Source: Actinomycetes bacterium | Lineage (GTDB): Bacteria; Actinomycetota; Actinomycetes; Jiangellales; Jiangellaceae | DNA: 43,370 nt | Assembly (NCBI GenBank): GCA_021793295.1 | Contig: JAJYTA010000014.1 | Location: 1 to 43,370, forward strand | Direction of reading: 5' to 3' | In this document: positions 1,274 through 13,969 of the stretch, piece after piece | Layout of the letters: every line of letters starts with the position of its first letter | Numbering within the stretch: the stretch's first letter is position 1 | Position numbers and translations under genes: made by a program | The notes under the pieces: model-generated | What the model saw: only the letters and a program-made list of their open reading frames with translations | Database searches by the model: none | What the model was told of the DNA's origin: nothing

Positions 1274-2600
1274 GACTGCCCTCCCCGGACGTGTCTTCAT
1301 CAGTTGAGGACCTGGACGACGTGGACGTGGTGCCGGCACGAACGGCGGCGGCTGCCGGCTCGGGCACCTGCCCGGGCATGGGTGGCACCGGGTGCCCACC
1401 GGCGAAGGCGTCGAACGGCTCGTCCGACCGGTCGGACCCGGCCTCGTCGTCCGGGCGCTTCTCCGGGATCAGCAAGCTCGCCACCAGGATGACGGCGACG
1501 GCGATGCCGCCGTAGGTCAGGATCTGGCTGCGCTCGATGCCCTCGTTGAACGCCAGGCGCATCGCGGCGACCGCGACGATCCACACCAGTGAGATCGGCA
1601 GCAGCACCTTCCAGCCGAAGTGCATGAACTGGTCGTAGCGAAGCCTAGGCAACGTACCGCGCAGCCAGATGAACAGGAACATCAGCAAGATGATCTTGCC
1701 CAGGAACCACAGGATCGGCCACCAGCCGGTGTTGAACATGCCGTCGTTGATCGCCGAGATCGGCCACGGCGCGCGCCAACCGCCCAGGAACAAGGTCGTG
1801 GCGATCGCCGAGACGTTGACCATGTTCATGTACTCGGCCTGGAACGGCATGGCGTACTTGAACGAGGAGTACTCCGTTCCCCACCCCGCGACCAGCTCGC
1901 CTTCAGCCTCGGGCAGGTCGAAGGGCGCACGGTTGGTCTCACCGACCATCGAGATGAGGTACACCACGAACGACGGCATCAAGATGATGCCGTACCAGAG
2001 CCGCTCCTGGCTCTCCACGATCCCGGACGTGGACATGGTGCCGGCGAACAGGAACACGCCGACGAACGACAACCCCATGACCAGCTCGTACGAGATGACC
2101 TGAGCGGTCGAGCGCAGCGCTCCGAGCAGCGGGTACGGCGAACCACTCGACCAGCCGGCGAGCATGAGCCCGTACACGCCCACCGATGCGATGGCCAGCG
2201 TGAACAGCACCGCGACCGGCATGTCGGTCACCTGCAGCCGAGTCTCGTGACCGAAGATCGACACTTCGGGGCCCATCGGGATGACGGCCATGATGAGGAA
2301 CGCGGGCACCAGCGAGATGATCGGCGCGACGACGTAGACGATCTTGTCAGCGGCCCTCGGGACGATGTCCTCTTTGAACATCAGCTTCGTGCCGTCGGCG
2401 AGGCTTTGCAGCCAGCCGCCGGGGCCGGTCCGGTTCGGGCCGACCCGGTGCTGCATCCGCGCCACGACCTTGCGCTCGAACACGATGTTGAACAGCGTGA
2501 GCAGGATGAGCAAGACGAAGATCGCCAGGCACTTGATGGCGATGATCCACCACGGGTCGTTACCGAACGCCCCGAGGTCGTAGGACTGAGCCGCGATCAC
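1266..2600 (-). CDS. nuoH: NADH-quinone oxidoreductase subunit H
   Basis: Membrane subunit at the junction of the two arms of complex I that forms much of the quinone-binding chamber. The GTG start at 2600 overlaps the nuoG stop (GTGA). It is 444 residues with about eight to nine membrane helices. Conserved NuoH stretches are visible: [19 protein letters not shown] in the first cytoplasmic loop and [20 protein letters not shown] in the acidic quinone-site loop. The last ~65 residues are a hydrophilic Pro/Ala/Ser-rich tail (from about [10 protein letters not shown]) absent from E. coli NuoH but common in actinobacteria; it contributes nothing recognisable. Confidence 0.97.
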
Positions 2601-5056
2601 GAGGAAGCACCTTTCTGCAGCGCGACGACCTGCCCGGCCTCGGCAGCGAGGTCGGCGTGAACGTGCGAGCCCGGAGAGTTCTCCGGCAGCCAGACGACGC
2701 GGTCGGGCATCTCGGTGATCCGCACCGGCAGCGTGATGGCACCGGCGTCGGTGCGCACCGTCAGCTCGTCGCCGTCGGCGACCCCGACCTCACGCGCCGT
2801 TCCCGCAGACACTCGCGCTTCAGCGGCGTGCGCGGTCTGCGCCAGGTGCGGCTCACCATCCTGACCGCGCCCGGAGTCGAGCATGAGCCGCCAGGTCGCC
2901 AGGACCGCCTGAGCGGCTCCGGGAGCCGGCGGGCCCGATGTCGCGGTCTCTGCCGGTTCGACCCGCGCACCGTCCCAGTCGCCGAAGGCGGCCAACTCGG
3001 TCCGGATCGCGTCCACGTCGCGGACACCGAGCCGGATGTCGAGCTCGTCGGCCAGCGTGTCGAGCACAGCGGCGTCGCTCAGCGCCGCCGTCTCGGTCAG
3101 CACCTGCGGGAACGGGCGCTCCCGGCCTTCCCAGTCGATGAACGTGCCGGCCTTCTCGACCGGCGGAGCCACCGGGAGTACGACGTCGGCGCGCTCGGTG
3201 ATCTCGCTGCGCCGCACCTCGAGGCTGACGACGAAGTCCGCGGCCTCGACGCTCGCGCGCGCCGCGGCGGGATCCGGGAGATCGGCCAGCTCGACACCCC
3301 CGACCAGCAGGCCGCTGAGCGTGCCGTTGCGCGCCGCCTGCAAGATCCCGGCGGTGTCGCGACCGGGCAGCGCCGGAACGTTGCTCACCGACCAGGCGGC
3401 GGCCACGTCGACTCGGGCCTCGGCGTCAGAGACCGGCCGGCCACCCGGCAGCAGGCCCGGCAGAGCGCCGGCCTCGACCGCGCCTCGCTCGCCAGCGCGC
3501 CGCGGCACCCACGCCAGGCGCGCCCCAGTGACCGTCGCCACCCGCGCCACGGCCGACAGCGCGCCGGGAATCGCCGCCAGGCGGGACCCGGCCAGGATGA
3601 CCGCGTCCTTCTGGCGCAGCGCGTCGGCGAGGTAGGACACGCGGTCGTCGCCGAGGGTGATCGCGTTGAGGATCTCCGGTTCGGTACCGGGTGCTGCCGG
3701 CAGCAACGTCCCGGACATCTTCTCCAGCCCGCGCGTGGCGAACGGGGCGATCGCGTGGACACGGGTCGGCGCGGCCGCCCGGCTGGCCTTGCGGAGGCGC
3801 AGGAAGATCGCCCCGGCCTCCTCTTCGGGCTCGAGCCCGACCAGGAGCACGGTCGGCGCCTTCTCGAGGTCGGTGTAGGTGACGCCGAGCCCGGTGCCCG
3901 CGATGGAGCCGAGGAAGGCTGCTTCCTCGGCCGAATGCACGCGCGCGCGGAAGTCGACGTCGTTGGTGTCGAGCACCACCCGGGCGAACTTGGCGTAGGC
4001 GTAGGCGTCCTCGACCGTCAACCGGCCACCGGGCAGCACGCCCACCCCGGCGGCGTCACGCGCTCGGGCCAGCCCGCGCGCGGCGAGCGTCAGAGCCTCC
4101 GGCCACGACGCCGTCACCAGCTCACCGGTCTCTTCGTCGCGCACCAGCGGGTGCCACAAGCGGTCGTCCAGGTTCGGCCAGCGGAAGGCGAAGCGGTCCT
4201 TGTCGGTGATCCACTCCTCGTTCACCTCGGGGTCGTCACCGGCGAGGCGGCGCATGACCGTGCCCCGACGGTGGTCGACCCGGATGGCGCTGCCGCACGC
4301 GTCGTGCTCGGCCACCGAGGGCACCGACACCAAATCGAACGGCCGGGCGCGGAACCGGTAGGCCGCCGAGGTCAGCGCGCCGACCGGACAGATCTGGATC
4401 GTATTGCCGGAGAAGTAGCTTTGGAACGGCTGGTCCTCGTAGATGCCCACCTGCTGCAGTGCGCCACGCTCGAGCAACTCGATGAACGGGTCACCGGCGA
4501 TCTCCTTGGAGAAGCGGGTGCACCGTGCGCACAGCACGCAGCGCTCACGGTCGAGCAGGACCTGGGCCGAGATGCTGATCGGCTTCGGGAACGTGCGCTT
4601 CTTGCCCTCGTAGCGCGAATCGCCACGGCCGTTGCTCATCGCCTGGTTCTGCAGCGGGCACTCGCCGCCCTTGTCGCAGACCGGGCAGTCCAGCGGGTGG
4701 TTGATCAGCAGGAACTCCATGATGCCCTGCTGGGCCTTGTCCGCGACCGGCGAGGTCAACTGGGTCTTGACCACCATGCCCGGCATCACTGCGAGGGTGC
4801 ACGACGCCTGCGGCTTGGGCATCCCCCGCCCGTTGCCGGCATCGACGACCTCGACCAGGCACTGGCGGCAGGCACCGACCGGGTCGAGCAACGGGTGATC
4901 GCAGAACCGCGGGATCTGGATCCCGATGAGCTCTGCAGCCCGGATGAGCAGGGTGCCTTCAGGAACGCTCACTTCGAACCCGTCGATGGTGAGCGTGACC
5001 ATGTTGGGCTGCGGCTCCACGGCGTCGGACGCGGCGGAGTTGGTCGTGACAGTCAT
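2597..5056 (-). CDS. nuoG: NADH-quinone oxidoreductase subunit G (N7 cluster ligands missing)
   Basis: Largest hydrophilic subunit of complex I, an electron wire in the peripheral arm; 819 residues from ATG 5056. Ligands visible: [2Fe-2S] N1b C52, C63, C66, C86; [4Fe-4S] N5 H120, C124, C127, C133; [4Fe-4S] N4 C173, C176, C179, C223. A molybdopterin-oxidoreductase-like domain follows. The four positions that in E. coli and Thermus hold the off-pathway cluster N7 (spacing C-x2-C-x3-C-x27-C) are A249, D252, S256 and T284 here, so N7 is predicted absent, as in mitochondrial 75-kDa subunits. It is separated from nuoF by 34 bp and overlaps nuoH. Confidence 0.97.
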
Positions 5057-5090
5057 CGGCTGACACTCACTTTCTTACGCGCTCCAGCCA

Positions 5091-6452
5091 TCAGGCTCGG
5101 ACCCCAGCTTCCTGCTGGCTCTCGGGAGCGAACAGGGTCGAGGCGGCCGGGTCGAACGGGCAGCCCTGATTCTCGAAGTGGGCGATGTACTCGTCGCGGA
5201 AGTACTGGATCGACGAGACGACCGGCGCGACGCCGCCGTCCGCCAGCGCGCAGAAGGAGCGCCCGGCGATGTTGTCGCTCATGTCGAGCAGCTTGTCGAG
5301 GTCGGCCTCGGTCCCGTCGCCCTTCTCGAGCCGGTCGAAGATCTGCACCATCCACCAGAAGCCCTCGCGGCACGGGGTGCATTTCCCGCACGACTCGTGC
5401 TTGTAGAACTCGACCCAGCGGCCGGTGGCGCGCACCACGCACGTGGTGTCGTCGAAGATCTGCAGCGCCCGGGTACCGAGCAACGAGCCCACCCCGGCCA
5501 TGCCTTCGAAGTCCAGCGGGACGTCGAGGTGATCGGCGGTGAGCATCGGCGTGGACGAACCTCCGGGCGTCCAGAACTTCAGCTCGTGGCCGGCGCGAAC
5601 GCCCCCGGCCATGTCCAGCAGCTCCCGCAGCGTGATACCGAGCGGAGCCTCGTACTGGCCAGGATTGGTGACGTGCCCGGACAACGAGAAGATGCCGAAT
5701 CCCGGCGATTTCTCCGTGCCCATGGTGCGGAACCAGTCCGCGCCGCGCTCGACGATCGAGGGCACCGACGCGATGGTCTCCACGTTGTTGATCACCGTCG
5801 GCGACGCATAGAGCCCCGCGACGGCCGGGAACGGCGGCTTCAGCCTGGGCTGGCCGCGCCTGCCCTCGAGCGAGTCGAGCAGCGCTGTCTCCTCGCCACA
5901 GATGTAGGCGCCGGCGCCGGCATGCACCACGACGTCGATGTCGACGCCGGAGTCGAGGATGTTGGTACCGAGATAGCCGGCTTCATAGGCCTCGGCTACC
6001 GCGTTCTGCATGCGGCGGAACACATGCAGAACCTCGCCGCGCACATAGATGAACGCGGTCTTGGCGCCGATGGCGTACGAGGTGATGATCACACCCTCGA
6101 GCAGGACGTGCGGGTCGGCCATCATCAACGGGATGTCCTTGCACGTGCCCGGCTCGGACTCGTCGGCGTTGACCACCAGATAGGTCGGCTTCGGGCTGTC
6201 TTTCGGAATGAAGCTCCACTTCATCCCCGTCGGGAAACCAGCGCCGCCACGACCGCGCAGGCCGGAGTCCTTCACCGCCTCGATGATGTCCTCGGGCTTG
6301 CGCTGCAACGCCATGCGCAACGCCTTGTACCCGCCCGCCTTCTCGTAGGCGCGCCGAGTGAACGAGTCCGGCTGATCCCAGCGCTGCGTGAGCACCGGGG
6401 TCAGCGTGATCGGCTCCCGCCCGCCCGGAGCATCCACGGTTGGTTCAGTCAC
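5091..6452 (-). CDS. nuoF: NADH-quinone oxidoreductase subunit F (NADH/FMN-binding)
   Basis: Entry subunit of complex I: binds NADH and FMN and holds [4Fe-4S] cluster N3. It is 453 residues from a GTG at 6452 that overlaps the nuoE stop (GTGA). The glycine-rich nucleotide site GRGGAGFPTG is at residues 67-76, the NADESEPGTCKDI FMN region near 95-107, and the N3 ligands are C355, C358, C361 (ESCGKCTPCREG) and C401. Length and residue order match the family throughout. It forms the dehydrogenase module with NuoE and NuoG, which flank it. Confidence 0.98.
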   Translation of the reverse strand: MTEPTVDAPGGREPITLTPVLTQRWDQPDSFTRRAYEKAGGYKALRMALQRKPEDIIEAVKDSGLRGRGGAGFPTGMKWSFIPKDSPKPTYLVVNADESEPGTCKDIPLMMADPHVLLEGVIITSYAIGAKTAFIYVRGEVLHVFRRMQNAVAEAYEAGYLGTNILDSGVDIDVVVHAGAGAYICGEETALLDSLEGRRGQPRLKPPFPAVAGLYASPTVINNVETIASVPSIVERGADWFRTMGTEKSPGFGIFSLSGHVTNPGQYEAPLGITLRELLDMAGGVRAGHELKFWTPGGSSTPMLTADHLDVPLDFEGMAGVGSLLGTRALQIFDDTTCVVRATGRWVEFYKHESCGKCTPCREGFWWMVQIFDRLEKGDGTEADLDKLLDMSDNIAGRSFCALADGGVAPVVSSIQYFRDEYIAHFENQGCPFDPAASTLFAPESQQEAGVRA

Positions 6453-7216
6453 TTCGCCTCTCCTCGACCCTCGATGGCGCGCTGACCGCCTTCGGGCGCG
6501 GTCCAGCCGCGCTCCTCAGCCAGGGTGCGCCCCACCAGCGACGCCGGTCCTGCCTGGGGCCCCTCGGTGGCCAGGTCGTCCGGGAAGCCGGCCAGCACGC
6601 GCTCGGCCTGGCGCCAGGTGCAGATCCGCGGCCCGCGCGTCGACGTCACCTGTTCTCCGGCTCGCAGCCGATCGACCAGCTCGACAGCCGACTCAGGGGT
6701 TTGGTTGTCGACGAACTCCCAGTTCACCACCATGACCGGCGCAAAGTCGCAGGCCGCGTTGCACTCGACCCGCTCCAGCGAGACCTTGCCGTCCTCGGTG
6801 GTCTCGTCGTGCCCGATCCCCAGGTGCTCCGACAGGTCCTCGAAGATCCGGTCACCGCCCATGATCGCGCACAGCGTGTTGGTGCACACGCCGACGTGGT
6901 ACTCACCGACCGGCCGGCGCTTGTACATCGTGTAGAAGGTCGCCACCGCCGCGACCTCGGCCTCGGTGATGTCGAGGATCTGTGCGCACATCTCGATGCC
7001 GGCGGGGGTGACGTGCCCCTCGTAGGACTGCACCAGGTGCAGCATCGGCAGCAGCGCCGACCGCGGCTCGGGGTACCGGGCCACGATCTCGCGCAGCTCT
7101 GCGCGCGCGTTGTCGTCCAGTTTCGTTGGAGACGATTCTTCTGGTCGCACTCCGGTCCTCACTCGCTCCGCCGACCGCTGCGCTTGCTCGTCGTCTCGCC
7201 GCTCCGTGTCGCTCAT
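6449..7216 (-). CDS. nuoE: NADH-quinone oxidoreductase subunit E ([2Fe-2S] N1a)
   Basis: Thioredoxin-fold [2Fe-2S] subunit of the NADH dehydrogenase module. It is 255 residues from ATG 7216, which overlaps the nuoD stop (ATGA). Cluster N1a ligands are C111, C116, C152 and C156 (VCTNTLC ... ECNAAC). Compared with E. coli NuoE (~166 aa) it has about 35 extra charged residues at the N-terminus and about 60 at the C-terminus; both extensions are usual in actinobacteria. The first ~33 residues are charged and poorly conserved in appearance, so a downstream start cannot be excluded. Confidence 0.96.
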
Positions 7217-8574
7217 CGGTCACACCCGCCCATCACCGGGTCGATGCTCGCGATGGCGACGATGACGTCGGCGATCATCCCGCCCTCGCACATCGCCGCG
7301 ACGGCCTGCAGGTTGTTGAACGACGGGTCACGGAAATGCACGCGCCACGGACGGGTCCCGCCCTCGGAGACCACATGCGCGCCCAGTTCGCCGCGTGGCG
7401 ACTCGACCGGCACGTAGACCTGCCCGGCCGGTACCCGGAAGCCCTCGGTCACCAGTTTGAAGTGGTGAATCAGGGCCTCCATGGACTCACCCATGATGTG
7501 GCGGATGTGGTCGAGGGAGTTGCCCATGCCGTCGCTGCCGATGGCCAGTTGCGCGGGCCAGGCGATCTTCTTGTCGGCGACCATCACCGGGCCCGGCTCC
7601 AGCCGGTCGAGGCACTGCTCGACGATCTTCAGCGACTCCTTGATCTCGTCGACGCGGATGCGGAACCGGTCGTAGGAGTCGGCGTTGTCACGGGTGGGAA
7701 CCTCGAAGTCGTAGGTCTCGTACCCGCAGTAGGGCTGCGTCTTGCGGATGTCCCACGGCAGGCCGGTCGAGCGCAGCACCGGGCCGGTGATCCCGAGCGC
7801 CATGCAGCCGGCCAGGTCGAGGTAGCCGATGTCGACGGTGCGGCCCTTGAAGATCGGGTTCTCGTTGCACAGATCCTCGTACTCACCGATGTGGTCCCAC
7901 ATCCAGCGCAAGTACTCGCGCACGCTCTCGACCGCGCCGGGCGGCAGGTCTTGGGCCACCCCGCCCGGACGGAAGTAGGCGCTGTTCATCCGCAACCCGC
8001 TGATCAGCTCGAACAGGTCGAGGGTGAGTTCGCGCTCGCGGAAACCGTTGGTCATGACGGTCAGCGCGCCCATCTCCATGCCGCCGGTGGCGATGGCCAC
8101 CAAGTGCGACGAGATGCGGTTGAGCTCCATCATCATGACCCGGATGACGTTCGCCCGCTCGGGGATCTCGTCGGTGATGCCGAGCAGCTTCTCGACACCG
8201 AGCACGTAGGCGGCCTCGTTGAAGAACGGCGACAGGTAGTCCATTCGCGTCACGAAGGTGACGCCCTGGGTCCAGTTGCGGTACTCGAGGTTCTTCTCGA
8301 TACCGGTGTGCAGATACCCGACACCACATCGGGCCTCGGTGACCGTCTCGCCGTCCAGTTCGAGGATGATCCGGAGCACACCGTGCGTGGACGGGTGCTG
8401 CGGGCCCATGTTGACCACGATGCGTTCCTGGCCCGCGACGGCCGCGTCGACCACGTCGGACCAGTCCTGCCCGGTGACGGTGTAGACCGGTCCCTCGGTC
8501 GTCTCGCGCACCCCGGCGTAGGGATCGTCCGTGTCGGCGCCGGTCGGCGTGAAGGTGACGTCGTTGTGGCTCAT
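7213..8574 (-). CDS. nuoD: NADH-quinone oxidoreductase subunit D (49-kDa type)
   Basis: Homologue of the NiFe-hydrogenase large subunit; with NuoB it forms the quinone-reduction site of complex I. It is 453 residues from ATG 8574, which shares one base with the nuoC stop (TGATG). The [10 protein letters not shown] loop near residue 60 contains the conserved histidine that contacts the quinone headgroup, and the protein ends in the family-typical DPVMGGCDR. NuoC and NuoD are separate genes here, unlike the fused NuoCD of E. coli. Confidence 0.98.
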
Positions 8575-9392
8575 CAGTTGTAGGCCCTCCGCTCGTCGGG
8601 CGGCGGAATAGTCGCGCCCTTGTACTCCACCGGGATCCCGCCCAGCGGGTAGTCCTTGCGCTGCGGATGCCCCGGCCAGTCGTCGGGCATCTCGATCCGG
8701 GTGAGGGACGGATGCCCGTCGAAGATGATGCCGAAGAAGTCGTAGGTCTCACGCTCGTGCCAGTTCACCGACGGATAGGTGGACACGATGGACGGGATGT
8801 GCGGATCGCCGTCCGGACAGGCGACCTCGAGGTTGACCCGGCGGTTGTGGGTGATCGACAACAGCTGGTAGCAGGCGTGCAGCTCGCGGCCGGTCTCCTC
8901 CGGGTAGTGCACGCCGTTGACGCCCATGCACATCTCGAAGCGCAGTGCGGCGTCGTCGCGGAACACCCGTGCCACCTCCGGCAACCGGTCCCGCTTGACG
9001 AAGAACGTGATCTGGCCGCGGTCGACGACGACCTTCTCGAACACGTCGTCGCTGAGGCCCGCATCGCTCAACGCTGCGCTGACGTCATCGCCGAGCCGCT
9101 CCAGCTCGTCGTGCCACGGCCGCGGCGTCGACCCGCCGCGGATCGGGTTGGTGTCGCGTACGACCAACCGGCCGTAGCCGGACGTGTCGCCGCTCCCGTC
9201 GACGCCGAACATGCCTCGGCGGCTGGGATGCGGCGGCGGTAGTTCCGGCCCGCGGGTGTCGACGGCGTCACCTGGCGCCTCGGCCAGGCCCGGAGCCGGG
9301 TCACCGCCGGTGGTGACCTTCTCCTTCGAGCCGTCTTCGGTCCCGCCCTGCTCGGAGGTGGGGTCGGGCTTCTTGGGATCGTCGGGACTCAC
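8574..9392 (-). CDS. nuoC: NADH-quinone oxidoreductase subunit C (30-kDa type)
   Basis: Structural subunit of the complex I peripheral arm. The GTG at 9392 ([10 protein letters not shown]) overlaps the nuoB stop as GTGA, giving 272 residues; longer versions of the frame only read antiparallel through nuoB. The first ~75 residues are hydrophilic and low-complexity, as in other actinobacterial NuoC proteins. The core then shows the signature [20 protein letters not shown] and the end [13 protein letters not shown]. Gene order nuoB-C-D and the overlaps on both sides support the call. Confidence 0.95.
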
Positions 9393-9943
9393 CGCAGTAG
9401 CCCTTTCATCTCGTGCGTCGCCGGCGCCTCGAGCGCGGCGGCCTCGGCTTCGGCCTCCGCGGCCTCGCGGTGCGCACCCAGCTTGGTGTGCTGGATCTGC
9501 TCGTGCAGCTTCAAGATGGCGTCGATCAGCATCTCCGGGCGCGGCGGGCAGCCGGGCAGGTAGACGTCCACCGGCACGATGTGGTCCACGCCCTGCACGA
9601 TGGCGTAGTTGTTGAACATCCCGCCGCTGCTGGCGCAGACGCCCATCGACAGGACCCACTTGGGGTTGGCCATCTGGTCGTAGATCTGGCGCAGCACCGG
9701 AGCCATCTTCTGGCTGACGCGGCCGGCGACGATCATCAAGTCGGCCTGACGCGGCGACGCACGGAAGACCTCCATGCCGAAGCGCGACGAGTCGTGCCGC
9801 GGGCCACCGAAGGCCATCATCTCGATCGCGCAGCACGCCAGGCCGAACGTCGCCGGCCACACCGAACTCTTGCGCATGAATCCGAGCACGCCTTCGACGG
9901 TGCTCAGCATGACACCGGCTGGCAGCTTCTCTTCGATGCCCAT
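9389..9943 (-). CDS. nuoB: NADH-quinone oxidoreductase subunit B (cluster N2)
   Basis: Holds terminal [4Fe-4S] cluster N2 that reduces menaquinone. It is 184 residues from ATG 9943, preceded by a GGGAGG ribosome-binding site. The N2 ligands are C37, C38, C103 and C132 (the tandem LACCAIE motif, VCASSGG and GCPPRP). The C-terminal tail after GCPPRPE is Ala/Glu-rich. It lies 28 bp downstream of nuoA and overlaps nuoC by 4 bp. Confidence 0.98.
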
Positions 9944-9971
9944 CGCTCACGCCCTCCCTTCAGGTCGCAAC

Positions 9972-10331
9972 TCAATCCCAGTCCAGGCCGCCACGCCGCC
10001 ACTCGTACGCGAACGGCACCGTGATCAGGACGATGAACGTCACCATCGCGAGGAAACCGAAGACACCAAGGTGGTCGAACCGCACCGCCCACGGGTACAG
10101 GAAGATGATCTCGATGTCGAAGATGATGAACGTCATGGCGGTCAGGTAGTACTTGATCGGGAATCGCCCGCCGCCGGCGGCTTGCGGCGTCGGTTCGATA
10201 CCGCATTCGTACGAGTCGAGCCGGGCGCGGTTGTACCGCTTGGGCCCGGCCACGGCCGAGAACGCGACGGAACCGACCGCGAAGACGGCGGCCAGCACGA
10301 TGAGGCCGATGACCGGCGCGTAGAGGCTCAC
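9972..10331 (-). CDS. nuoA: NADH-quinone oxidoreductase subunit A
   Basis: Three-helix membrane subunit of complex I near the quinone chamber. I place the start at GTG 10331 (V/M-SLYAPVIGLIVL), giving 119 residues, because this lines up with the N-termini I know for Streptomyces and Mycobacterium NuoA (MNxYxPILVL). An in-frame GTG at 10400 would add 23 hydrophilic residues and has no good ribosome-binding site. Conserved features: GPKRYNRARLDSYECGIEP and KYYLTAMTFIIFDIEIIFLYPWA. The start overlaps, as GTGA, the stop of a 13-codon ORF with its own strong Shine-Dalgarno, suggesting coupled translation. Confidence 0.93.
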   Translation of the reverse strand: MSLYAPVIGLIVLAAVFAVGSVAFSAVAGPKRYNRARLDSYECGIEPTPQAAGGGRFPIKYYLTAMTFIIFDIEIIFLYPWAVRFDHLGVFGFLAMVTFIVLITVPFAYEWRRGGLDWD

Positions 10332-10369
10332 GCGAAACCACCCTTCTCGGTACCGGTTCGGTAAGTCAT
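10328..10369 (-). CDS. Candidate 13-aa leader ORF upstream of nuoA
   Basis: ATG at 10369 follows AGGAG by 6 nt, a good Shine-Dalgarno. It encodes MTYRTGTEKGGFA and ends in TGA overlapping the nuoA GTG (GTGA at 10331-10328). The arrangement would load ribosomes onto nuoA, which has no strong site of its own. The alternative is that nuoA starts upstream at 10400, in which case this ORF is an out-of-frame accident. Confidence 0.4.
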   Translation of the reverse strand: MTYRTGTEKGGFA

Positions 10370-10422
10370 CCTCGTCTCCTCGTTCGTCAGCCGCTGACAC
10401 TCCGGGGTGCGCATGAGTCTGC

Positions 10423-11709
10423 TCATGCCGCCGGAGCCAGGCGGGTCATCGCGTTGATGACGCGGTCGTAGACGTCACCGTCGCGGTGGTCGGTCAGGTT
10501 GGCCAGCAGTTTCAGCGTGAACTTCATCAGCCAGGGACGGGGCAGTCCGTGGTTGGTGGCGATTCTCATGATGCGGGGGTCACCGATCAATCTGACGAAG
10601 ATGCGGCCCAAGGTGAAGTAGCCGCCGTGCTCATGCTTCAGCGCTGCAGGATAGCCCTGCAGCACTCGCTCCCGACCGGCGGCATCGCGCGACAGCGCGT
10701 CGGCGGCCATGTTCGCGGCCAGATTCGCCGCTTCCATGGCGTAATCGATGCCTTCACCGTTGAACGGATTCACCATCCCCCCGGCGTCTCCGACCAGGAG
10801 CAGCCCCCGACTGTAGTGAGGCTGGCGGTTGAAACCCATCGGCAAGGCTGCGCTGCGGATGGCACCGACCCGGTTCTCCTCGGTGAATCCCCATTCCGGC
10901 GGCGTCTGGGCCGCCCAGCGGCGCAGCATGTCCCGGTAGTCGACCCGCCCGAACGCCTTGGACGTGTTGGTGATGCCCAGGCCGACGTTGCTGGTGCCGT
11001 TGCCGGTTCCGAAGATCCAGCCGTAACCGGGCAGCAGATCACGACCGCCGCGGGAGTTCTCGGCCCACAGCTCCAGCCAGGACTCCATCCAGTCGTCGTC
11101 GTGGCGGGGGCTGGTGTAGTAGGCGCGGACGGCCACGGCCATCGGCCGGTCCTCGCGCTTGTGGATGCCCATGGCCGTCGACAGCCGCGACGACGTGCCG
11201 TCGGCGGCTACGACCAGCGGCGCACGATACGTCCGGGTCTCACCGGTCGGTCGGCCCCGCTCGTCGAGTTGCTTGGTCGTGACCCCCGTGATCCGTCCGG
11301 TGGCGTCGTCGATCACAGGCCCGGTGACGTTGGTGCGCTCGAACAACCGCGCCCCGGCGCCGACGGCGTGCTGGGCGAGAAGGTGGTCGAAGTCGGCGCG
11401 GGTACGGACCAGCCCGTAGTCGGGGTAGCTGGCCAGATCAGGCCAGGGCAGGTGCAGCCGCATGCCGCCGCCGATGATGCGCAGCCCCTTGTTGCGACTC
11501 CAGCCCGGGGCGCTGGTGTCGATACCCATCCGGACGAGCTGCCGCACGGCTCGCGGCGTCAACCCGTCACCGCAGATCTTGTCGCGGGGGAACGACGCCT
11601 TCTCCAGCAGCAGCACGTCGAGCCCGGCTCGTGCCAGGTAGAACGCCGTAGTGGAACCGGCCGGCCCGGCTCCGACGACGATCACGTCCGCTGTGCCGTT
11701 CACAGGCAT
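10423..11709 (-). CDS. menJ: Geranylgeranyl reductase family FAD oxidoreductase, probable menaquinone reductase MenJ
   Basis: FAD-dependent reductase of the geranylgeranyl reductase family. In mycobacteria the member MenJ saturates the beta-isoprene unit of menaquinone-9. It is 428 residues from ATG 11709. An N-terminal Rossmann motif (VIVVGAGPAG, residues 9-18), the KICGDGLTPRAVRQL segment and the second FAD motif LLVGDAGGMVNPFNGEGI are visible. It is the first gene of the nuo operon, 91 bp ahead of nuoA, which links quinone tail modification to the quinone-reducing complex. Substrate is inferred from family and context; other prenyl-lipid reductases share the fold. GTG 11703 is an alternative start. 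Confidence 0.85.
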   Translation of the reverse strand: MPVNGTADVIVVGAGPAGSTTAFYLARAGLDVLLLEKASFPRDKICGDGLTPRAVRQLVRMGIDTSAPGWSRNKGLRIIGGGMRLHLPWPDLASYPDYGLVRTRADFDHLLAQHAVGAGARLFERTNVTGPVIDDATGRITGVTTKQLDERGRPTGETRTYRAPLVVAADGTSSRLSTAMGIHKREDRPMAVAVRAYYTSPRHDDDWMESWLELWAENSRGGRDLLPGYGWIFGTGNGTSNVGLGITNTSKAFGRVDYRDMLRRWAAQTPPEWGFTEENRVGAIRSAALPMGFNRQPHYSRGLLLVGDAGGMVNPFNGEGIDYAMEAANLAANMAADALSRDAAGRERVLQGYPAALKHEHGGYFTLGRIFVRLIGDPRIMRIATNHGLPRPWLMKFTLKLLANLTDHRDGDVYDRVINAMTRLAPAA

Positions 11710-11795: not shown

Positions 11796-11825
11796 GTGAG
11801 TTCGTGAATCTATTCACTAACTCAC
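11796..11825. promoter_or_regulatory. Rex-like redox operator and probable menJ-nuo promoter
   Basis: The core GTGAATCTATTCAC (11804-11817) matches the Rex operator core GTGAA-N4-TTCAC. Flanking arms GTGAGTT (11796-11802) and AACTCAC (11819-11825) extend it to a 30-bp inverted repeat with one mismatched base pair. It lies 87-116 bp upstream of menJ. On the minus strand a -10-like TAGATT falls inside the palindrome, with TTGGGT 18 bp upstream, so binding would block RNA polymerase. In Streptomyces, Rex senses NADH/NAD+ and is reported to control respiratory genes including nuo. No rex gene is in this window. Confidence 0.7.
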
Positions 11826-11827
11826 AC

Positions 11828-11877
11828 TCGACCCAAGTGTATGGGTAACCCTCAAGGGTCGACGACCGGGGGCCGGT
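11828..11877. terminator. Clustered inverted repeats downstream of menG
   Basis: TCGACCC (11828-11834) pairs with GGGTCGA (11856-11862) around an inner GGGTaACCC (11843-11851), and next to it ACCGG-GGG-CCGGT (11865-11877) forms a short stem. These lie 75-124 nt beyond the menG stop and just upstream of the putative menJ promoter. They could end menG transcription or bind a regulator; there is no T-tract. Confidence 0.4.
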
Positions 11878-11951
11878 GCACTGACCAGGGGATTTAGTCA
11901 CCGCGAGCGTTGCGAAATTCGACTCGTGCAGGTGCGCCCGGCACTACCGCG

Positions 11952-12656
11952 TCAACGTGCCCATTCCGGACGTACGGCGTGATGCAGCGCGACCACGCCA
12001 CCGCTGAGATCTCGCCAGCGCACAGCCGCCCACCCGGCGCCGGCCAACCGGGCGGCCAGGCCGCGCTGGTCGGGCCAGGCCCGGATCGACTCGGCCAGGT
12101 ACACGTAGGCCTCCGGACTGCTCGACACCGCGCGAGCCACCGACGGCAGCGCCCGCATGAGGTACTCGACGTAGACGGTGCGAAACGGTGCCCAGACCGG
12201 GTGGCTGAACTCGCACACCACCACGCGCCCGCCGCGCTTGGTGACCCGCAGCAGCTCACCGAGCGCCCGGTCGACCTCGGCGACGTTACGAAGCCCGAAG
12301 GACATCGTCACCGCGTCGAACGTCTCGTCGGCGAACGGCAGGCGCAGGGCGTCACCGGCGATGAACGGCACGTGCGGACGCTGGCGCCGCCCGGCGCTGA
12401 GCATGCCCACGGACAGGTCGCAGGCCACCACCTGCGCCCCGGCGTCGAGGAACGGCTCGCTCGACGTACCCGTCCCCGCGGCCAGATCGAGGATCCGCTC
12501 GCCGGGTCGAGGCGCCACAGCGCGGGTGACCGCTCGACGCCACAGCCGGTCCTGCCCGAGCGAGAGCACATCGTTCGTGAGGTCGTAACGCTCGGCGACG
12601 GCGTCGAACATCGCCGCGATCTCCTGCGGTTTCTTGTCCAGCGAGGCGCGAGTCAC
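11952..12656 (-). CDS. menG: Demethylmenaquinone methyltransferase
   Basis: SAM-dependent C-methyltransferase (UbiE/MenG family) catalysing the last step of menaquinone synthesis. I choose GTG 12656 ([15 protein letters not shown]), 234 residues, which matches the MTRASLDK start of actinobacterial MenG; ATG 12662 is 6 bp upstream. Motif [15 protein letters not shown] near residue 60, the FGLRNV motif and VVVCEFSHP are characteristic. A -10-like TAGGCT (12670-12665) ends 8 nt before the GTG, which would make a leaderless mRNA. It is divergent from menF. Confidence 0.93.
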
Positions 12657-12715
12657 AGCCATCAAGCCTAGACCTGAGCTGCCGGCCGGCTCGGCCCGCC
12701 GTACGCTTGGCAGCT
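12657..12715. promoter_or_regulatory. Divergent menG/menF promoter region, probably leaderless
   Basis: Only 59 bp separate the two GTG starts. TAGGCT (minus, 12670-12665) and TACGCT (plus, 12702-12707) are -10-like hexamers, each ending exactly 8 nt before its GTG, the geometry of leaderless actinobacterial transcripts. No convincing -35 is visible on either strand. The symmetry suggests joint control of an early and the final menaquinone step. Confidence 0.5.
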
Positions 12716-13969
12716 GTGACGACATTGCCCGCGAGCGCGCCGTTGGTCGTTCGTACCATGGAGATCGGCGACCCCGGGCCGCTGCTCCACCTGCTGCCCG
12801 AACACACGCCGATGTCGTGGACCAGGCATGGCGAAGGGCTGGCCGGCTGGGGTGAGGCGGCGCGCTTCGACGCCGTCGGCCCGAATCGGTTCGCCGCCGC
12901 CGAGCACTGGTGGCAGCGGATGGTCTCCACTGCGGTCGTGCGCGACGAGGTCGGCCTACCCGGGTGCGGTCCGGTCGCCTTCGGTTCGTTCGCCTTCCAC
13001 GACCATCCCGGCCGATCCGCACTGGTGCTGCCCGAGACCGTCGTGGGTCACCGCAACGGCCGCTGGTGGGTCACCACGGTCAGCGTGTCGGGCAACCTGC
13101 CGGGTGTTCCGGACATCGAGCCGATGCCGGCCCCGCGGCGACCGGAGTCCGTGGCCTTCGCCGACGGGTCGCACAGCGGCGCGGCGTGGGAGAAGATCGT
13201 CGCCGAGGCAGTGCGGCGCATCAACGCCGGCGACCTCGAGAAGGTGGTCCTGGCCCGCGACCTGATCGCCGAATGCGCCGACCACGTCGATGTACGCTGG
13301 CCGGTGCAGCGGCTGGCCGAGCGCTACCCGCGGTGCTGGACGTTCTGCGTCGACGGACTGATCGGGGCCACCCCCGAACTGCTGGTGCGCCGCGAACGCG
13401 GCCTGGTCACCTCGCGGGTGCTCGCGGGGACCATCCGCCGCAGTGGTGACGACACCCACGACCTCGCGCTTGCCGCCTCGCTGGCGCGCTCCAGCAAGGA
13501 CCTCGAGGAGCACGAGTACGCCGTGCGCTCGGTGGCAGAGGCGCTGAACCCGCACTGCTCCAGCATGAACGTCCCCGAGGCGCCGTTCGTCCTGCATCTG
13601 CCCAACGTGATGCATCTGGCCACCGACCTGGCCGGAGTCGCCTCCGACGGGTCGTCGTCGCTCGGCCTGGCCGCCGCGCTGCATCCGTCGGCTGCGGTCG
13701 GCGGCACGCCCACGGACGTCGCCTGCGCGCTCATCCGCGAGATCGAGGAGTTGGACCGCGGCCGCTACGCCGGGCCGGTCGGCTGGATCGACGCCGACGG
13801 TGACGGCGAGTGGGGCATCGCGTTGCGCTGCGCCGAAGTCGACCAGGCCAACCCCGCCCGGCTGCGGCTGTTCGCCGGCTGCGGCATCGTCGCCGGGTCG
13901 GATCCGGCCGCCGAGCTGGCCGAGAGCGTCGCCAAGCTGGTGCCGATGCGCGACGCGTTGACCATCTAG
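12716..13969 (+). CDS. menF: Isochorismate synthase
   Basis: Converts chorismate to isochorismate, the committed step to menaquinone. It is 417 residues from GTG 12716; an in-frame TTG at 12707 is possible but less likely. The C-terminal chorismate-binding domain shows [16 protein letters not shown], the LAGTIRR segment, [10 protein letters not shown] and [14 protein letters not shown] with conserved Glu/Lys positions. No partner lyase domain is attached, and the nearby menD argues for menaquinone rather than siderophore or salicylate use. It ends 8 bp before the convergent AraC gene. Confidence 0.9.

Follow-up and report, generated by a model that had tools for sequence, protein, structure and literature searches.

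Rex is a bacterial NADH sensor. Its operators (ROP) in Streptomyces avermitilis have been located at nuoA1-N1, rex-hemAC1DB, cydA1B1CD, wblE and ndh2 (PMC5355995). Footprints were obtained at nuoA1, at rex (TTGTGCACGCGTTCACAA), at wblE (TCGTGAAAGCGTTCACAT) and at cydA1, where the site lies downstream of its start. The bound regions run from -42 to -16 at nuoA1, from -3 to +25 at cydA1 and from +108 to +135 at wblE, and operators before and after the transcription start are thus both documented in this species (PMC5355995). The Rex sites of Staphylococcus aureus (TTGTGAAWWWWTTCACAA) display the same core and symmetry, but there the targets are anaerobically induced genes (PMC2883068). The gene neighbourhood considered below, with a methyltransferase, a geranylgeranyl reductase and nuo, is also found in the ubiE-ggr-nuo locus of Actinomyces oris; the main text of that paper leaves Rex unmentioned (PMC5478893).

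The locus compared here belongs to a 4.67-Mb draft genome of the Jiangellaceae, whose nearest named relatives, judged by MenJ, are Jiangella, Phytoactinopolyspora and Haloactinopolyspora. The window, that is, the whole stretch of DNA that was analysed, comprises 43,370 nucleotides. On its minus strand, a menG/ubiE demethylmenaquinone methyltransferase ORF (11952-13022) ends upstream of the operator described below. It is followed by a 242-bp gap holding a dyad, by a menJ-like gene (10423-11709), by the nuoA ORF (9972-10400), in which the NuoA model matches residues 25-142, and then by the other nuo genes, of which nuoB, nuoC, nuoD, nuoF and nuoG (2597-9950) were identified. The first gene of the operon encodes a menJ-like geranylgeranyl reductase of 428 aa and is presumably co-transcribed with nuo. 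Its product passes the cut-off of the GG-reductase family TIGR02032 and reaches 258.5 bits against the 700-bit cut-off of the MenJ equivalog NF045655. The name menJ is therefore only a family-level call.

The dyad in the gap (GTGAGTTCGTGAATCTATTCACTAACTCAC, 11796-11825, unstranded) surrounds a Rex-type operator. A repeat search returned two arms of 14 nt each (11796-11809 and 11812-11825) around a 2-nt spacer, with 13 of the 14 pairs (93%) complementary, which bears out the symmetry over 30 bp with one mismatched pair that the first-pass annotation had described. No other dyad in the window combines 14-nt arms with at most one mismatch and a spacer of at most 8 nt. In first-order Markov simulations such a dyad is expected 0.4 times per 43 kb and is present in 0.1% of simulated 242-bp gaps. 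The operator core itself, TCGTGAATCTATTCACTA (11802-11819, unstranded), is an inverted repeat with two mismatches, at positions 2 and 17, to TTGTGAAN4TTCACAA. Its inner part, GTGAATCTATTCAC, agrees with the Rex core GTGAA-N4-TTCAC, as had been noted before, and the 4.67-Mb genome contains four copies of this string. The remaining exact matches to GTGAA-N4-TTCAC (contigs C23 and C41) differ in their outer flanks and were set aside as Rex targets. The outer arms, GTGAGT/ACTCAC, are specific to the source genome, and the 30-bp form occurs only once genome-wide, even when three mismatches are allowed.

The same genome carries a single Rex gene, whose product scores 376 bits with NCBIfam model NF003992 (cut-off 226) and is matched by solved Rex structures over residues 56-261. 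The presence of rex, a check proposed along with the original description, was thereby established. A genome scan with the Streptomyces operator TTGTGAAN4TTCACAA, allowing at most two mismatches, yields exactly three sites: one at ndh (perfect), one at rex (one mismatch) and one at menJ-nuo (two mismatches). The regulon is defined by mismatch counts and not by a calibrated weight matrix. Since a control scan with the reversed pattern also gives three matches, the evidence lies in the locations of the sites and not in their number. Here ndh denotes a type-II NADH dehydrogenase-like gene, named from its sequence with no NCBIfam model above the cut-off. The consensus is shared with S. avermitilis, as are complex I, rex and ndh as targets, and the site upstream of rex (TTGTGCACGCCTTCACAA) is near-identical to the autoregulatory rex site of that species. 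The cytochrome bd genes differ: cydA1 of S. avermitilis has a Rex site, whereas no Rex-like site within four mismatches was found in the regions fetched around the cytochrome bd genes of the source genome (contigs C160 and C38; L198 and L199).

The site is widely conserved. All 22 family genomes have Rex sites, with a menJ-proximal site in each menJ locus, and a perfect site adjoins the ndh homologue in all 19 such loci checked in the family genomes. In 79 of the 80 named relatives, the 415 bp in front of menJ contain a site that departs from the consensus at no more than two positions; such a site turned up in 1 of 2000 simulated regions and in none of the 80 intragenic coding regions taken as controls. 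The conservation of the palindrome, which had been put forward as a check, consequently holds for the core. In all 79 site-bearing relatives nuoA stands directly behind menJ; the one exception (L062) has rex but neither an adjacent nuoA nor the site. The same association appears in a class-wide sample, where the site is present in 12/12 rex-bearing genomes with adjacent menJ-nuoA and absent from 3/3 rex-bearing genomes with a menJ at least 56% identical and no nuoA found beside it. In G027, the only clean rex-less negative in the sample, no rex was detected and the site is absent, although menJ-nuoA is present. G077 is ambiguous: it scores as rex-less yet has the site. Its assembly is 94% complete and in 380 contigs, and both rex and the site are present in its congener G033; the rex gene of G077 may well have been missed in the fragmented assembly.

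Taken together, the three-site regulon, the conservation in the family and in named relatives, the link to nuoA and the absence of the site from the rex-less genome indicate that 11802-11819 is very probably an operator for the single Rex repressor of this genome. Binding of Rex at menJ-nuo is thus predicted from sequence comparison.

The position of this operator in the promoter could be deduced from conservation. A scan with the sigma-70 consensus found no promoter, and the -10 was identified by its conservation instead. Each of the 71 distinct sequences has, ahead of the 18-bp operator, a TAnnnT hexamer (TACACT, TAGACT, TAAACT and similar), the distance from start to start being 17-23 nt. 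On the menJ strand, the conserved -10 of the Jiangellaceae (TACACT or TAGACT) has its end 16-17 nt upstream of the 18-bp core. In the window it is TACACT (11836-11841, minus strand), and the usual count of 12 nt from the -10 places the nominal transcription start at about 11829. The site therefore stands between a conserved -10 and the respiratory, NADH-linked menJ-nuo genes. Because the -10 lies upstream, the operator would be situated downstream of the start, at about +11 to +28, in a putative roadblock geometry. The first-pass annotation had let the palindrome overlap a -10-like element, which is unlikely given the upstream position of the conserved one. TAGATT within the palindrome was considered as a -10 and rejected, as it overlaps the variable N4 centre in part and lacks conservation. 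At the rex and ndh promoters the operator is placed directly upstream of a -10-like element. The ndh operator (contig C132; L087, 1501-1518) is directly upstream of a -10-like TAGAAT that is itself very near the start codon, which suggests that the ndh mRNA leader is short or absent. The nuo site of S. avermitilis likewise differs in position, as it covers -42 to -16 of nuoA1, while the present site precedes menJ-nuo and would follow the start.

Another conserved promoter element, TTTCGCAAC-N8-TGACTAAAT, is found at 11892-11917 on the minus strand. Its general form, TTWCGCAAC-N8-TGCGTAAAT, lies some 51-76 bp ahead of the menJ -10 and resembles an inverted repeat at an activator-like distance. 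It is present at the menJ promoter in 20/20 near-complete Jiangellaceae genomes, each of which has few or no further copies, and a similar form occurs in a Nocardioidaceae MAG (L019). A copy with three mismatches (TCTCGCAACAACTACTTTGCGTAACA) recurs at another locus (L202, near 1487) in several Jiangella genomes. In G005 the TTWCGCAAC element has one more genomic copy, which gave no clear lead to a regulator.

When NADH is low, an NAD+-bound or apo Rex dimer would sit on the menJ-nuo transcription unit at about +11 to +28 and block promoter escape or early elongation, the roadblock mode being proposed from the geometry. Upon an increase of the NADH/NAD+ ratio, for instance under oxygen limitation, NADH binding would free Rex, and menJ-nuo would be derepressed along with ndh and rex. 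This mechanism would not require arm sequence further than about 3 bp out on either side.

The menJ-nuo operator deviates from the two other sites at one particular base. The second base of each half-site is C or A in the menJ-nuo operators of 20/20 near-complete Jiangellaceae genomes, and the partial genomes G002 and G003 have a T in one half. At the ndh sites, and at the rex sites listed for the same genomes, both halves have T here. In the DNA bound by T. maritima Rex two thymines precede the G, and the structure shows them hydrogen-bonded by the wing residues Arg60 and Gly61 (PMC8836258); by the alignment made here, the inner one would correspond to the deviating position. Both operator mismatches would thus affect this wing-contacted base, which is a point against the Rex reading. 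A TCGTGAA half-site is nevertheless bound by Rex in S. avermitilis wblE, and this Rex also binds sites downstream of the start, as predicted here (PMC5355995). It is plausible that the menJ-nuo operator is a weaker, graded Rex site.

A regulator of the CRP family could in principle read the same DNA, as GTGA-N6-TCAC fits a CRP-like core and the perfect Rex sites in Streptosporangiales also contain the CRP/FNR-type operator TGTGA-N6-TCACA. The outer T/A of that operator is, however, lost in the Jiangellaceae (CGTGA/AGTGA): the outer bases are C and T in the window and C/A in the half-sites of the near-complete genomes, while the Rex-specific inner A/T pair (GTGAA/TTCAC) is invariant. Moreover, the same motif stands at the rex promoter in family genomes and is absent from the rex-less genome that has the operon, so that a CRP-type operator is highly improbable here. 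About as improbable is an occupation of the outer arms by another protein or by an additional Rex dimer. The symmetry does reach 30 bp in the source genome, and in S. avermitilis Rex is also able to touch adjacent half-sites (PMC5355995), but the sequence of the arms beyond offset 3 is not conserved and the genome has no other copy of the 30-bp form. Across the 71 sequences, the pair next to the 18-bp core is generally kept (57 Watson-Crick, 12 T.G), about half pair at the following two, and pairing then declines; 33 of the 71 pair at offsets 4 and 5, with lower numbers beyond these. The first-pass annotation had called the dyad unusually long for a Rex site and suggested that the arms could hold a second protein or a Rex multimer. 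Neither such an occupant nor a functional meaning of the length could be sustained, as the arms are not conserved as sequence, even in the congener L128, where the extension is also not significant.

Selection on the RNA was considered as well. The transcribed dyad might also, or mainly, be maintained as a 5'-terminal hairpin of the menJ-nuo mRNA, and RNA from the nominal start does fold into a stem of 16 bp that contains a single mismatch and a single bulge. In the Jiangellaceae several arm pairs change on both sides and 88% of pairs hold; the covariation of 0.298 exceeds that of shuffles (0.162) and of slid controls (at most 0.112), but it was obtained from 14 phylogenetically related sequences. 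It therefore seems that this family preserves the symmetry over about five pairs outside GTGAA. The sense fold is more stable than the antisense in 56 of 75 cases, a bias that may reflect base composition. Against a hairpin, most relatives show no significant extension of the stem (z from -2.6 to +0.6, many near 0), nor does L128, the sole congener compared, and the recurrent A.G mismatch is no wobble pair. With folding and covariation mixed, the hairpin was rejected as the main function, and selection for it in any role is quite unlikely. The arm symmetry could stem from RNA-hairpin selection, from extended Rex contacts or from template-switch mutation at palindromes.

The Rex operator accordingly remains the preferred reading, and this is a known kind of switch, conserved across many actinomycete families, with small lineage-specific twists. 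A more elaborate version of it appears rather unlikely: the menJ-nuo operator would be selectively weakened and placed after the start, its arms would form a leader hairpin, and nuo, ndh and rex would be released at different NADH levels. If this were true, the two NADH dehydrogenases would be ordered by NADH level, and nuo would be subject to further control at the RNA level. That the nuo operator consistently differs from those of ndh and rex yields a simple prediction of graded Rex responses.

The comparison adds the Jiangellaceae to the lineages with a defined Rex regulon, here made up of ndh, rex and menJ-nuo. In each of the sampled rex-bearing actinomycetes in which the reductase gene adjoins nuo, the reductase and complex I have a Rex site in common. 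Joint NADH control of menaquinone tail reduction and complex I, as initially suggested, can be upheld in part: a menJ-like geranylgeranyl reductase is probably coupled with complex I under Rex, and its action on menaquinone is putative. If the reductase does act on menaquinone, the same redox signal would adjust both the saturation of the quinone tail and the oxidation of NADH.
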